From the NCBI RefSeq assembly GCF_027257175.1, contig NZ_JAPFGD010000013.1:1-64000 (forward strand): a stretch of DNA of 64,000 bases, in the 5' to 3' direction. Each line of letters begins with the position of its first letter. Within the stretch, counting starts at the first letter, position 1. The stretch comes from Castellaniella sp. S9. GTDB taxonomy: Bacteria > Pseudomonadota > Gammaproteobacteria > Burkholderiales > Burkholderiaceae_B. Below are positions 23,288-27,660 of this stretch, one piece after another. A program made the translations under genes and the position numbers. The notes under the pieces were generated by a model, which did not search any database, was not told the DNA's origin, and saw nothing but the letters and a program-made list of their open reading frames with translations.

Positions 23288-24760
23288 ATGGCCGACAGCT
23301 CCACGGATCCCATCATCGCGATCGCCACCGCCCCCGGCCGGGGCGGCATCGGCGTGCTGCGGATTTCCGGCCCCCGGCTGGCCGACTATGCGCACAGCCT
23401 GTTGGGCCTGACGCCGCGGCCGCGCCACGCCCATTACCTGCCGTTTCGCAATGCCGCTGGCGAGGTCATGGACGAGGGCATTGCCCTGTACTTTCCAGGC
23501 CCCCATTCCTATACCGGCGAGGACGTGCTGGAACTGCAGGGCCACGGCGGGCCCGCCGTGCTGCGCCGCGTGCTGGAGGACTGCCTGGTGCGCGGCGCAT
23601 CCATCGGCCTGCGCCTTGCCCAGCCAGGCGAATTCACCCAGCGCGCCTTCCTGAACGATCGCCTGGACCTCGCCCAGGCCGAGGCCGTCGTCGATCTCAT
23701 CGAAGCCAGCTCGGCCGCCGCCGCGCGTAGCGCCATGGCTTCGCTGTCGGGCGCCTTTTCCGCCGAGGTCGACGCCCTGGCCGAGCGCATCGTTCACCTG
23801 CGCATGCTGGTCGAGGCCACCCTGGATTTTCCCGAGGAGGAAATCGACTTCCTGGAAAAGTACCAGGCGGCGCAGCGCCTGGAGGCGGTGTCCGATGCGC
23901 TGGACGGTGTGCTGCGCACCGCGCGCCGGGGCCTGGTGTTGCGCGAGGGCCTGCACGTGGTCCTGGCGGGCCAGCCCAACGTCGGCAAGTCCAGCCTCCT
24001 GAACGCCCTGGCGGGCGACGAGGTGGCCATCGTCACCCCGATCGCCGGCACTACGCGCGACCGGGTCGTGCAGCAGATCCACATCGAGGGCGTGCCCCTG
24101 CACGTCGTCGACACCGCCGGCCTGCGCGACACCGAGGACACGGTCGAGCGCATCGGCATCGAGCGCAGCTGGGCCGAGATCGCCCGCGCCGATGTCATCC
24201 TGCACCTGCAGGATGCCCGCAGCCCCGGCGATCCCCTCGACGCCGACATCGCCCGGCGCCTGCCGCCGCAGGCGCCGGTGCTGGTGGTGTGCAACAAGGT
24301 CGACCTGCTGGACGAGGCGGGGCAGAGGGCGTTGGCGTCCGGGGCGGCAGGTTCACGGCCGGCCGCGGGTGCCCGCTCCGGCGCCGGGATGGCCGGTGCC
24401 ACGGGTGACGGTACGGGTACAGTCGGGATACCGGCCGCGGATACGTCGGACGCCTTGCTGGTGTCCGCGCATACCGGTGAAGGCCTGGATGCGCTGCGGG
24501 CGCGCCTGCTTTCGATCGCCGGCTGGACGCCGGGGACGGAATCGCCGTGGCTCGCGCGCGAGCGCCACGTCCAGGCCCTGGAGGCGGCCCGCGCCCACCT
24601 GCGGGCCGCCGCCGCGCATGCGGCGCACAGCGATCAGGTCCTGGACCTGTTCGCCGAGGAGCTGCGCCTGGCGCACGAGGCCCTGTGCGGGATCACCGGG
24701 CAGTTCACCAGCGATGATTTGCTGGGGGAGATCTTTTCCAGTTTTTGTATTGGGAAGTGA
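23288..24760 (+). CDS. mnmE: tRNA modification GTPase MnmE (TrmE)
   Basis: 490 aa. It partners with MnmG to modify U34 of tRNA. An N-terminal tetrahydrofolate-binding domain (about 1-120) and a helical domain flank a Ras-like G domain. Its motifs are GQPNVGKS (228-235), DTAGL (275-279), NKVD (336-339) and SAHTG (393-397). A 35-40-residue Gly/Ala-rich insertion (about 350-388) between the last two makes it longer than the usual 450-455. The essential C-terminal FCIGK (486-490) is present. Its last codons (TTT TGT ATT) are A+T-rich for this genome and were apparently supplied by the integrated element that starts here. Confidence 0.97.
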
Positions 24761-24761
24761 G
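24743..24761 (+). repeat. Left att-like copy of the mnmE end (attL candidate)
   Basis: Sequence TTTTGTATTGGGAAGTGAG, overlapping the last five codons and stop of mnmE. It resembles the attachment core described at the trmE end for SGI1-type islands (TTCTGTATTGGTAAGTAA, recalled from the literature). Confidence 0.75.
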
Positions 24762-24893
24762 GTTGGGTCTATGGACGTCCACTGAAGTTTGCTGATTTGC
24801 CTGTAAGCCGCATAAATAAAGGGATTTTTGTCTACTGAGTGATTCGGTGATACAGTCAAAGCCATCGCTATCCGGGTCCATATTTGGGTCCAA

Positions 24894-25083
24894 GTCACTG
24901 ATACCGCTCTCAAGGCACTCAAACCAAAGGATGCTTCTTACATCGTCAGTGACGATCGCGGGCTGTACGTCGAAGTGCTGCCGAGTGGTAGCATCGTCTG
25001 GCGTTACCGCTATCGGCTGGATGGCAAACGGGAAAAGCTCACACTCGGTAAGTACCCGGCCCTTACCCTGAAGAGCGCCGTCA
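24894..25083 (+). pseudogene. Truncated tyrosine-integrase N-terminus (P4/DUF4102 type)
   Basis: The frame reads VTDTALKALKPKDASYIVSD, then a GLYVEVLPSGSIVWRYRYRL segment and KLTLGKYPALTLKSAV. This is the arm-binding N-terminal domain of P4-type integrases. No ATG, GTG or TTG precedes it in frame after the stop at 24840. The similarity stops at about 25083, where unrelated sequence begins, so only about 63 of roughly 400 codons remain. It is placed immediately inside the attL candidate, where an integrase gene is expected. Confidence 0.8.
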
Positions 25084-25105
25084 TTGTCCAGATCTCGTTC
25101 TCATA

Positions 25106-25243
25106 TCATGCCAGCGATAAAGTTGCCGGAGACTTGGGAGCTAGGGCAGGTGTTTGCCAAACGATGCCGTGCGCTTCGAGAAGGCCGACTAGACGGGCGT
25201 TCTCGGCACGAAGGCGGGCGATCTCATCGCTGTGGTACGTCAT
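25106..25243 (-). pseudogene. Short gene stub, N-terminus of a helicase-like protein
   Basis: 45 codons from ATG at 25243 encoding MTYHSDEIARLRAENARLVG, a coiled-coil start, followed by LLEAHGIVWQTP. This resembles the opening of large helicase/primase proteins carried by integrative elements (TOTE-like), recalled from family knowledge and not certain. It then runs into unrelated codons and a stop, where it meets the integrase stub head to head. It is likely a deletion remnant. Confidence 0.4.
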
Positions 25244-25285
25244 ACTGCCTCCACACGTGCAGACTCACCCCACCCGTTGCCACCA

Positions 25286-26335
25286 CTAGCGCAACTCGTA
25301 CCACGTCCCACGCCCGCCCCCCTGCTGGACCAGATGCCCCTGCTTCACCAGCGTACGGAAGTGCTGTTTGAGCGTGTTGCGGTTGCCGCCGGTCAGGCGG
25401 ATGGCTTCGGCCATGGTGATACGGCCGTGCTCGCGCGTGAATTCGACGATCTGCAATGCCAGGTCCGGCAGCTTGGCCAGCACCAGCTTCTCGCGCTCGA
25501 CCTTGCGCTCCAGGCGACGTACCTGCTGGGACAGCGCACGCAGGAAGAACACCAGCCAAGGCTGCCAATCAGGCGCGTCGGTGCGGATGCTGCCTTGTGT
25601 CTGGCGCAGCGCCAGGTAGTAGGCTTCCTTGGTCTGCTCGATTACGCTTTCCAGTGAGCTGTACGGCACATAGGCATAGCCGGACTGCAACAACAGCAAG
25701 GTGGTCAGTACCCGGCTCAAACGGCCATTGCCATCCTGGAAAGGGTGAATCTCCAGAAACACCACGACCCAGATGCCGATGAGCAGCAGCGGATGCAGGC
25801 GCCCATGACTGCGCTCCTCGTTGAACCAGGTCACCAGTTCGGCCATTAGATGCGGTGTATCAAAAGGCGTGGCAGTCTCGAAGACAATACCCAACTGTTT
25901 GCCGTGTTCATCGAAGGCCGCCACGCTGTTGCTGGTGGTCTTGTAATTGCCGCGATGCCAGGCATCCTTGTCGCTGTAGGTTAGCAGGTCGCGGTGCAAT
26001 TGCCGGATGTGGTTTTCTGTCAGCGAGATGTCTTGCCAAGACGTAAACACCAGTTCCATGACTTCGGCATAACCAGCGACTTCCTGCTCATCGCGCGTCT
26101 CGAACGACTTGATCTGCAGATTGGACAACAAACGCTCGACTTCGCGATCCGACAGCTTGCTGCCCTCGATACGAGTCGAGGAGCCGATGCTCTCGATGGT
26201 GGCCACCCGCCGCAGTGCCGACAGCCGATCCGGTGCCAGCGTGCCTAGCGCACGCCACGCGCCCTTGAATTCGTCTATCCCGGCGATCAGGCCCAGGATG
26301 TCGGTGGTGATCTGGAGGGTGTCTGTGCGGATCAT
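25286..26335 (-). CDS. Fic-family protein with N-terminal inhibitory helix and C-terminal winged helix
   Basis: 349 aa. A class II Fic protein. The inhibitory motif SSTRIEG (S/T-xxx-E-G) near residue 52 would block ATP in cis. The catalytic motif HPFQDGNGRLSR is complete, and a C-terminal winged-helix segment (GRITMAEAIRLTGGNRNTLK) suggests DNA binding. Such proteins AMPylate targets and may autoregulate. The start at 26335 (MIRTDTLQ) is preferred; the upstream MGVNG codons lie in the repeat region. It is the only intact gene of the mnmE element and is transcribed against mnmE. Confidence 0.9.
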   Translation of the reverse strand: MIRTDTLQITTDILGLIAGIDEFKGAWRALGTLAPDRLSALRRVATIESIGSSTRIEGSKLSDREVERLLSNLQIKSFETRDEQEVAGYAEVMELVFTSWQDISLTENHIRQLHRDLLTYSDKDAWHRGNYKTTSNSVAAFDEHGKQLGIVFETATPFDTPHLMAELVTWFNEERSHGRLHPLLLIGIWVVVFLEIHPFQDGNGRLSRVLTTLLLLQSGYAYVPYSSLESVIEQTKEAYYLALRQTQGSIRTDAPDWQPWLVFFLRALSQQVRRLERKVEREKLVLAKLPDLALQIVEFTREHGRITMAEAIRLTGGNRNTLKQHFRTLVKQGHLVQQGGGRGTWYELR

Positions 26336-26349
26336 GGAACCAATAGTAC

Positions 26350-26403
26350 ACCCATTTACACCCAATCATGACTCCCAACCATTTCGGAACCCATTTACAC
26401 CCA
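26350..26403. repeat. Two perfect 15-bp direct repeats in the Fic leader
   Basis: ACCCATTTACACCCA occurs at 26350-26364 and 26389-26403, spaced 39 bp apart, 15-70 bp upstream of the Fic start. It could be an operator pair for the Fic winged-helix domain, or an iteron/arm-type site of the old element. The rest of 26336-26671 holds the right end of the element and the ohrR promoter. Confidence 0.55.
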
Positions 26404-26563
26404 TTCCTGTTGGGGCTAGCACAGCGACCACAAGCGAAGACCCGTATGCCATGGAAGTCCAGCGGGGGATACACTGAAGCATTGGGTCCAAGAATAGGCC
26501 CAAGTGAGACTCTTTTCTCGGAATTAATTTTTATGAATCAATAAGATAAAATCCAATAAACCC

Positions 26564-26582
26564 TTCTGCATCGGGAAGTGAG
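26564..26582 (+). repeat. Right att-like copy of the mnmE end (attR candidate)
   Basis: TTCTGCATCGGGAAGTGAG. It translates as FCIGK-stop in the mnmE sense and differs from the left copy only at three T/C positions, all third codon positions. The A+T-rich sequence just left of it (26515-26560) contrasts with G+C-rich DNA to the right, marking a compositional boundary. Confidence 0.78.
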
Positions 26583-26636
26583 CGAGACCCGATGGCGGAT
26601 TCACGGTTCCGGGGGTTACTCGATTATATAGATTGC

Positions 26637-26665
26637 TTGCTATCAAATAGCACACTATATATAAT
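26637..26665 (+). promoter_or_regulatory. ohrR promoter with overlapping operator
   Basis: The -35 TTGCTA (26637-26642) is separated by 17 bp from the -10 TATAAT (26660-26665). A perfect inverted repeat TGCTAT-CAA-ATAGCA (26638-26652) overlaps the -35 and spacer. The ATG at 26672 is only 7 nt after the -10, so the transcript would be leaderless or nearly so. OhrR autorepression at this repeat is inferred. Confidence 0.75.
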
Positions 26666-26671
26666 CATTCC

Positions 26672-27136
26672 ATGGACCTCGCGACCCAACCTCCGCCAAC
26701 CGCCGGCACGCCGCTTGCCCTGGACGCTCAGCTTTGCTTTGCCTTGTATTCCGCGCACTTGGCGATGGGCAAGGTCTATCGGCGGGCGCTGTCGGGGTTG
26801 GACCTGACCTATCCCCAATACCTGGTAATGCTGGTGCTCTGGGAATCGGACGGTCTGTCGGTGTCTGAACTGGGCGAACGCCTGTACCTGGATTCGGCCA
26901 CGCTGACGCCGCTGCTCAAGCGCCTGCAGGCCTCGGGCCTGGTGGCGCGCGAGCGCAGCCCCGAGGACGAGCGCCGCGTGCTGGTGCGCCTGACGGATGC
27001 GGGCCGCGCGCTGCGCGAGCGGGCACAGGCCGTGCCCGCGGACGTCATCTGCGCGACGGGCTGTACGCCCGAGCGCCTGCAAGGCTTGAAGGCCGATCTC
27101 GAGTCCTTGCGTCTGAATCTGCTGCGGCCGGAATGA
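26672..27136 (+). CDS. ohrR: Organic-hydroperoxide-sensing repressor OhrR (MarR family)
   Basis: 154 aa. A MarR winged helix (about 50-110, [20 protein letters not shown], then DERRVLV) with the two OhrR redox cysteines: sensing C22 in [10 protein letters not shown] and resolving C127 in VICATGC, plus C131. The numbering matches the Xanthomonas two-cysteine type. Oxidation of C22 by organic peroxides releases DNA and derepresses ohr, which lies 98 bp downstream on the same strand. No Shine-Dalgarno is visible, consistent with a leaderless message. Confidence 0.95.
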
Positions 27137-27234: not shown

Positions 27235-27660
27235 ATGACAGTCGAAAACGTCCTCTATACCGCCCACGCCAAGGCGACCGGAGGCCGCGAAGGCAGCGCA
27301 AAATCCTCCGACGGCCATCTGGACATCAAGCTGTCGACGCCCAAGGAACTGGGCGGCGGCGGCGGCGACGGCACCAATCCCGAGCAATTGTTCGCGGCCG
27401 GTTATTCGGCGTGCTTTCTGGGCGCCTTGAAGCTGGTCGCCGGCAAGGCCGACGTCAAGCTGCCCGATGACACCAGCGTGGAAGGCGCGGTGGGCATCGG
27501 TCCGATCCCGACGGGCTTTGGCATCCGGGTGGAACTGAAGATCTCGGCCGCCGGCGTCGAGCGCAAGACCCTCGAGGATCTGGTGCAAAAGGCGCACGTG
27601 GTCTGCCCGTACTCGAACGCGACGCGCGGCAATATCGACGTGACGCTGACGGTGGCGTGA
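27235..27660 (+). CDS. ohr: Organic hydroperoxide resistance protein Ohr
   Basis: 141 aa. A thiol peroxidase of the OsmC/Ohr family that reduces fatty-acid and organic hydroperoxides with lipoylated partners. The peroxidatic cysteine C60 (YSACFLGAL) and resolving C124 ([13 protein letters not shown]) are present, and the start [20 protein letters not shown] is typical. The ATG at 27235 has AAGGAG 7 nt upstream. The frame extends up to 27133 without a ribosome site. It is controlled by OhrR just upstream. Confidence 0.97.

Follow-up and report, generated by a model that had tools for sequence, protein, structure and literature searches.

Among the systems closest to the locus described here, SGI1-type islands of Gammaproteobacteria target the last 18 bp of trmE/thdF, have imperfect direct repeats and encode a lambda-family integrase (PMC3285670). 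The Shewanella MGItrmE is presented in PMC12016545 as a trmE defence island with anti-phage genes, and the term 'fic' has 0 occurrences in the main text of that paper. A 2025 paper (PMC12249575) states that Sofic guards bacteria against phage through AMPylation and abortive infection and that AS1 is its antitoxin. Here we analyze a 64-kb window (the whole stretch of DNA that was studied) from Castellaniella sp. S9 (genome G000; 3.8 Mb in 33 contigs), in which the 3' end of mnmE, the same gene as trmE, is followed by a 1.8-kb segment that carries a Fic gene. We conclude that this segment is an eroded integrative element, and we assign a probability of roughly 0.72 to the fuller reading that an element inserted into mnmE has been worn down to its two ends plus a selected, self-limiting Fic gene of defence. 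The features on which this reading is based are as follows.

23288-24760, forward strand: complete mnmE (trmE), ending FCIGK-stop (Pfam TrmE_N, MnmE_helical and MMR_HSR1)
24743-24760, forward strand: left repeat, last mnmE codons and putative core of the left attachment site (attL), TTTTGTATTGGGAAGTGA, with a native-like prefix
24761-24890, forward strand: left element end and integrase leader, from homology to the left ends of relatives
24891-25080, forward strand: integrase stub of 62 codons with the arm-DNA-binding domain only (PF13356, E-value 6e-16)
25081-25111, no strand assigned: deletion junction; blastn with G019, G025 and G092 places the end of integrase homology at about 25079 and the beginning of TOTE-gene homology at 25112
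25106-25243, reverse strand: N-terminal stub of a TOTE-type primase-helicase gene (118 nt, 86% to the start of an 835-residue reading frame in G019)
25286-26338, reverse strand: intact Fic gene (PF02661, E-value 1e-15)
26470-26563, forward strand: right element end with a GGGTCCAAGAATAGGCCCAAG-type site and a AATCAATAAGAT...CCC border, from the borders of relatives
26564-26581, forward strand: right repeat, putative core of the right attachment site (attR), TTCTGCATCGGGAAGTGA, from the repeat search

The two repeats (24743-24761 and 26564-26582) are identical at 16/19 positions, and no further site within four mismatches of the left copy, besides the right copy, was found on either strand of the window. 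The left copy begins TTT TGT ATT and the right copy TTC TGC ATC, each continuing GGG AAG TGA, and both encode FCIGK-stop, the three differences being T/C exchanges at third codon positions. The DNA that they enclose is richer in A+T (G+C of 0.51-0.63 in 500-base windows) than the flanks (0.60-0.73, most at least 0.65). Whichever copy is native, the MnmE protein is unchanged, and selection likely kept its tail; an mnmE match was found in 61/61 genomes searched, with a weak match in G030.

The left end, with the mnmE end included, is 78-88% identical over approximately 160-200 nt to the left ends of G015, G005, G002, G166 and G235. The integrase stub matches the beginning of the intact G019 integrase at 49/60 positions and, by inspection, has lost the ATG start that is present in the G025 integrase. 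No complete integrase was found in G000 at an E-value of 1e-80, where only the 62-codon stub is present. Pfam has no match for the second stub, whose identity comes from homology to the TOTE gene of G019, the 835-residue product of which matches AEP-TOTE (PF22548, E-value 9e-96). The right border resembles, by inspection, those of G025, G027, G103, G104, G135 and G233. An SGI1-style transfer or mobilization backbone is absent from the 1.8 kb, which holds the integrase stub, the TOTE stub and Fic only. A cis-mobilizable element (CIME) is bounded by two att ends and has neither integrase nor transfer genes. This is the arrangement found here, with attL and attR flanks, as read from the repeats, and no recombination or transfer genes, and the remnant is unable to move by itself, yet laid out like a CIME.

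A parent-type element is evident in G019, a member of another genus, in which element-type open reading frames (ORFs) extend approximately 29 kb past the mnmE tail. The 416-residue integrase, with Phage_integrase, Arm-DNA-bind_3 and central domains, is followed by an SNF2/DISARM-like helicase, a type IIG-like methylase, a PDC-S39 match, a Schlafen-AlbA protein, a UvrD-type helicase, a 403-residue ORF without a match, the AEP-TOTE primase-helicase, a 381-residue ORF without a match and, as the last element-type gene, the same Fic (the scans covered nine and eight ORFs; the stretch also has a 2121-residue ORF and some smaller ones). The proteins of this element match models for a DISARM-like helicase, type IIG, TOTE and other defence systems. 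Three blocks of the window align with G019, namely the left end together with the beginning of the integrase (434 columns at 68%), 118 nt from the TOTE gene start (86%) and Fic with its promoter (92% over 1120 columns), and the left end, TOTE stub and Fic stand in the same order in both. Two internal deletions in an ancestor resembling the G019 element thus account for the window element. Fic is 95% identical between the window and G019 versus 72% for MnmE, which fits lateral transfer.

The history that we propose begins with an element encoding a tyrosine integrase of the arm-DNA-binding type, which would have inserted into the last mnmE codons by site-specific recombination. Its attP core would have carried the same FCIGK-stop text, so that mnmE was rebuilt with its protein unchanged. 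Strand exchange most likely occurred after codon ATT/ATC, in which case TTT TGT ATT on the left is native and TTC TGC ATC on the right comes from the element. From an ancestor like that of G019, with its integrase on the left, defence-type genes in the middle and the TOTE primase-helicase, 381-residue gene and Fic on the right, one deletion would have removed the DNA from integrase codon 63 to about TOTE codon 45 and another the 381-residue gene, leaving both ends and Fic. Homology supports these two deletions, and the order of events is a reconstruction. The C-terminal winged helix of Fic may then bind repeats in the promoter and limit expression of its own gene.

Other members of the family provide further evidence that mnmE is a shared target. 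Among 268 genomes, pairs of the tail pattern located 1-25 kb apart on one strand occur in 17 (G000, G002, G013, G015, G025, G027, G084, G092, G099, G103, G104, G135, G220, G233, G234, G235 and G236), whereas the tail pattern read backwards gave 4 hits in the same genomes, and chance is thus no workable explanation. The right copy of G233 ends in TGG instead of a stop, and the att status of the second copy in G099 is unsure. A query with the G019 integrase (E-value 1e-80) has matches in 11/268 genomes. Nine of these are at least 87% identical (a set that counts G019 itself and the partial copies of G015 and G133), and every one of the nine is located no more than approximately 400 bp from an mnmE tail; the other two matches (40-42% identity) are located elsewhere than mnmE tails.

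Much of what an earlier note on this DNA had read from the letters alone is borne out by these results. The near-duplicate mnmE tail around foreign DNA is confirmed by the degree of identity, the uniqueness of the repeat in the window and the lower G+C between the copies, and the differences are indeed synonymous third positions. The proposed former integrative element finds support in the att-like repeats, the integrase stub and the cognate integrases of relatives, and its supposed remains (one stub of an integrase, another stub and a Fic gene) in Pfam matches and the TOTE homology. The suggestion of a shared hotspot with larger islands holds in related taxa, where the tail copies are 18.6 kb apart in G002 and 17.7 kb apart in G015 and the element of G019 has the length given above.

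The same note had taken the A+T codons of the left copy as foreign and the right copy as the stranded host end, and the comparisons do not support this part. The first codon is TTT in 8/8 single-copy tails of the same genus and TTC in none, and T is the commoner base at positions 6 and 9 (5/8 and 4/8); these eight genomes are not all empty at the site, because G004, G005, G007 and G008 hold foreign genes there. The predicted empty site, a single TTC TGC ATC tail followed directly by the regulator gene ohrR, was likewise not found, and the clean site of G001 has TTT TGT ATT, a different stop codon and two genes before ohrR. Both of these positions carry T in 8/8 single-copy tails of genus g53, where the two occupied genomes agree with it on the left wherever their copies differ. 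We compared 61 single-copy tails from four genera and scored the 7 of 17 pairs in which the copies differ and several single-copy genomes of the same genus exist. Differences in the prefix are native-like on the left in 9 cases and on the right in 2, and differences in the suffix in 2 and 1, respectively. TTC is the first codon of the right copy in 15/17 pairs and of the left copy in 6/17, and the suffix GGGAAGTGA is present in 14/17 left copies, 10/17 right copies and 13/61 single copies, the suffix counts being consistent with strand exchange behind codon three.

The base composition of mnmE itself points in the same direction. In 30 mnmE genes (that of the window included), third-position G+C, as raw values uncorrected for amino acid, averages 0.60 over the last 15 codons versus 0.75 before, and the D, D, I, F, F, C and I codons near the end have 0.30-0.47 versus 0.75 for codons 16-105 from the end. 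The fall begins upstream of the repeat (24710-24757 in the window) in genes with and without elements. On the strength of these values and the 61 single-copy tails, we rejected a foreign origin of the A+T-rich mnmE end as the better reading. The A+T-rich end also occurs in relatives whose mnmE has other stop codons. The left copy is probably native and the right copy element-derived, with the element having contributed at most the final GGG AAG TGA to mnmE.

Fic matches at an E-value of 1e-60 or better are found in 22/268 family genomes and are lacking in 246. An intact gene at 85% identity or more is present in 13 genomes, in 12 of which it lies on the same contig as mnmE, downstream and on the opposite strand (convergent), the thirteenth (G254) being at a contig edge. 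The distance from the last Fic codon to the nearest tail copy is 13 bp in G222, 28 in G098, 43 in G092, 117 in G219, 140 in G033 and about 530 in G000, and 1.7-28 kb in G099, G072, G233, G025, G232 and G019. A Thiomonas Fic (L072) that is 82% identical lies 64 bp from an mnmE tail, and among the best 80 loci of a wider scan the surrounding sequence that was covered includes mnmE in three (L052, which is G233; L054, which is G222; and L072). Whole copies of more distant Fic genes (74-79%) that are not beside mnmE occur in G130, G281, G288, G185 and G196, with the mnmE tail on another contig in three and approximately 100 kb off in two, and the G196 copy has one internal stop. The 13 intact sequences have no internal stops, and their ratios of nonsynonymous to synonymous substitution (dN/dS) relative to the window copy are 0.04-0.13 (12 comparisons, several with dS near or above 1), indicating that the gene is kept under purifying selection.

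Class II Fic enzymes carry an HxFx(D/E)GNGRxxR active site and an N-terminal (S/T)xxxE(G/N) motif. Both signatures of this AMPylating class are present, as HPFQDGNGRLSR and SSTRIEG, in 13/13 sequences, and the PADLOC SoFic model matches the window protein with 161.7 bits (E-value 8e-48). The C-terminal 58 residues are predicted to form three helices and a two-strand wing (H-H-H-b-b; model confidence, pLDDT, of 72-86). Fic folds led a structure search, with matches to 3ZCN, 3ZEC and 3EQX (18-19% identity in fold alignments), and the closest solved chain is 8UQU, another Fic protein, from Bordetella bronchiseptica. Relatives of the gene reside on 63/72,556 plasmids, in one case beside type I restriction genes. 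Our best guess is that the protein belongs to the self-inhibited AMPylating enzymes of class II and would stop phage-infected cells. Most likely, the locus represents an anti-phage Fic gene that regulates itself and became trapped at a shared hotspot, its function being predicted from kinship.

Possible self-regulation is suggested by two copies of a motif in the Fic promoter.

26347-26364, reverse strand: proximal motif copy TGGGTGTAAATGGGTGTA, a putative operator (promoter alignments)
26389-26403, reverse strand: distal motif copy TGGGTGTAAATGGGT (direct repeat D1)

With up to two mismatches, TGGGTGTAAATGGGT is present upstream of Fic at 95/102 loci, which include the window (L132), three duplicate genomes (L135, L136 and L140) and four loci with truncated Fic (L150-L153). 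The truncated loci account for four of the seven misses, and the count without them and the duplicates is 92/95. Loci with the motif come from Beta- and Gammaproteobacteria, many of them from other orders, and in some cases from genomes labelled as other phyla, although such labels are possibly wrong for metagenome bins, and the motif is sometimes doubled, with copies about 39 bp apart. A promoter set was restricted to the 46 loci in which an unambiguous start codon precedes AT[CT]; 43 of these have the motif at 26-59 nt, three being missed by position. An alignment of 42 of these promoters shows almost no variation at most positions of AATGGGTGTAAATGGGTGTAnnATTGG, which is better conserved than its flanks. 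The motif is placed either 29 or 30 nt from the start codon in 40/43 loci, so that the frame is not kept, and we therefore rejected the possibility that the motif is a coding extension. At up to one mismatch the 268 genomes contain 22 motif sites in 20 genomes (one hit for the control), and 18 of these (in 17 genomes) are beside Fic, one adjoins the end of mnmE in G158 and three are elsewhere. In four plasmids with Fic genes of 69-77% identity, the best motif match is exact on one plasmid and carries 2, 3 and 4 mismatches on the other three.

The motif is probably an operator for the winged helix of Fic itself, and the combination of a near-invariant promoter motif with this predicted domain makes autoregulation a fair inference. 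As a separate observation, the motif stands alone approximately 90 bp past the mnmE tail of G158 (L174), where no Fic gene was found.

Four other explanations were weighed against the reading of an eroded mnmE element with a retained defence Fic. We consider it quite improbable that the whole left copy came from the element and the right copy represents the former host end. The right copies of G092 and G099 are the more native-like at a prefix position, as this would predict, but TTT is the universal first codon of single-copy tails in the same genus (8/8), the left copies of g53 match the native T at positions 6 and 9 wherever left and right differ, and low third-position G+C upstream of the repeat is seen in mnmE genes with and without elements. 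There is practically no chance that the repeats arose by a local tandem duplication or an assembly artefact and form no att pair. An 18-bp tandem pair of the tail pattern in G249 speaks for this, yet in relatives a foreign integrase and defence-type genes stand between the copies, similar borders recur in other genera, and the recurrence with a cognate integrase that contradicts this explanation was found.

The remaining two alternatives concern the role of Fic. It is unlikely, in our judgment, that the locus is a decaying scar in which Fic is a bystander yet to be lost. Other remnants at mnmE (G234 and G235) show no Fic, broken pieces of it lie at mnmE in G005, G022, G251, G236 and G158, and much of the selection may date from the mobile phase of the gene; set against this are 13 intact frames with low dN/dS and fixed active-site and inhibitory motifs, the integrity of Fic where only 13-140 bp are left after the tail (G222, G098, G092, G219 and G033) and a promoter motif that is kept too. 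A role without phage defence, in which Fic is a stabilising toxin or a regulator of a hotspot or host process, is possible, if on the doubtful side. Its predicted DNA-binding domain and its plasmid relatives would suit such a role, as would the inclusion of toxins of toxin-antitoxin pairs among Fic proteins (PMC12249575), but the neighbours of Fic in the parent-type element match defence models, and the plasmid relative beside type I restriction genes likewise speaks for defence.

Several observations also weigh against the reading of a retained defence Fic that we favor. No right att core was found in G019 at up to three mismatches, to about 34.5 kb past the tail, and in G072, G099 and G232 Fic may lie outside an att-bounded element. 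The cases in which the right copy is native-like (2 prefix, 1 suffix) all belong to G092 and G099 of genus g4, and we can only infer the crossover point because a conspecific empty site is lacking. Retention of Fic is partly ascertained, because the survey was seeded with Fic; within the 17 paired-tail loci, Fic stands between the copies in 3 and just beyond them in 2. Five family genomes have only broken or trace Fic at mnmE (G022, G251, G005, G236 and G158), the trace in G236 amounting to 24 nt with a weak match to the Fic start, next to the right tail, and the high dS values noted above belong here as well. The structural model of Fic is middling overall (mean pLDDT 62.6), and the protein scores 59 bits with the NCBIfam SoFic equivalog (NF046030), far below the cut-off of 550, such that a defence role follows by kinship only.

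The chromosomal right flank of the window begins with two genes.

26672-27136, forward strand: ohrR-type MarR regulator (profile match; adjoins osmC in six genomes of the same genus)
27235-27660, forward strand: osmC-type gene (PF02566)

In G001 the order is mnmE, a monooxygenase-like gene, an FAD oxidoreductase-like gene, ohrR and osmC, with nothing mobile between. The first two of these precede ohrR in G001, G004, G008 and G009 as well and are missing from the corresponding interval of the window (26582-26671). The best match to the oxidoreductase in G000 is 40% identical and lies at another location, and neither gene was found in the G003 stretch. Downstream of mnmE there is a methyltransferase-like ORF in G009, a RhuM-like gene adjoins mnmE in G004 and G008, and AAA-type and DUF4276-like ORFs occupy the site in G007; all these names, like those of the monooxygenase-like and FAD oxidoreductase-like genes, are putative assignments from the sequences. 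We rejected G004, G007 and G008 as empty sites because foreign genes lie beside mnmE, leaving G001 as the sole clean site inspected in this genus. G005 has a decayed relative of the window element, with integrase pieces, a RhuM-like gene, a TOTE stub, the 381-residue gene and a 3' fragment of Fic. RhuM-like genes 91-99% identical to the G004 copy lie downstream of mnmE in G008, G005, G027, G025 (partial) and G135, which makes this gene another repeated cargo of the hotspot.

Two further sites deserve mention. G092 (L156 and L157) has a 20.7-kb island at mnmE, with presumably BREX-like ORFs, and an intact Fic 43 bp past its right tail, as if a newer island had landed ahead of an older remnant. 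G249 has an exact 18-bp tandem pair of the tail pattern (C13:52300-52335) with nothing between, perhaps a scar at a candidate mnmE end.

An eroded island at mnmE is ordinary in kind, and the promoter motif is the freshest part of these findings. The recurrent mnmE-Fic arrangement and the motif are the two points of note. In an open-access literature collection we found no account of an mnmE defence hotspot, of Fic with a trmE integrase, or of the letters of the motif. The arrangement illustrates a likely end state of a defence island, in which the mobile parts are lost and a single probable immune gene persists at one location across many genera, and mnmE tails offer an easy starting point for finding further genes of this sort in these bacteria. 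The motif bears on how a potentially toxic Fic protein is restrained. We tentatively suggest a Fic family that controls itself via its winged helix and a motif carried across phyla, one branch of which, in the family of the window (Alcaligenaceae-type, judging from its named members), may have been repeatedly delivered by mnmE islands and, once the island had eroded, domesticated on the spot as a stand-alone, self-regulated abortive-infection gene.

Compared with the known systems, the window Fic is like SoFic in its Fic domain, inhibitory motif, C-terminal domain and PADLOC match, and differs in its NCBIfam score (59 versus 550 bits) and in the 18-19% identity of its fold alignments. MGItrmE differs in its cargo, and the window element is a 1.8-kb remnant. 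The likeness to CIMEs lies in two putative att ends without a whole integrase or transfer genes. Relative to SGI1, the remnant lacks transfer and mobilization genes, belongs to another host class and has a left copy that looks native to the third codon, and it shares with SGI1 the same mnmE 3' target and the imperfect direct repeats.

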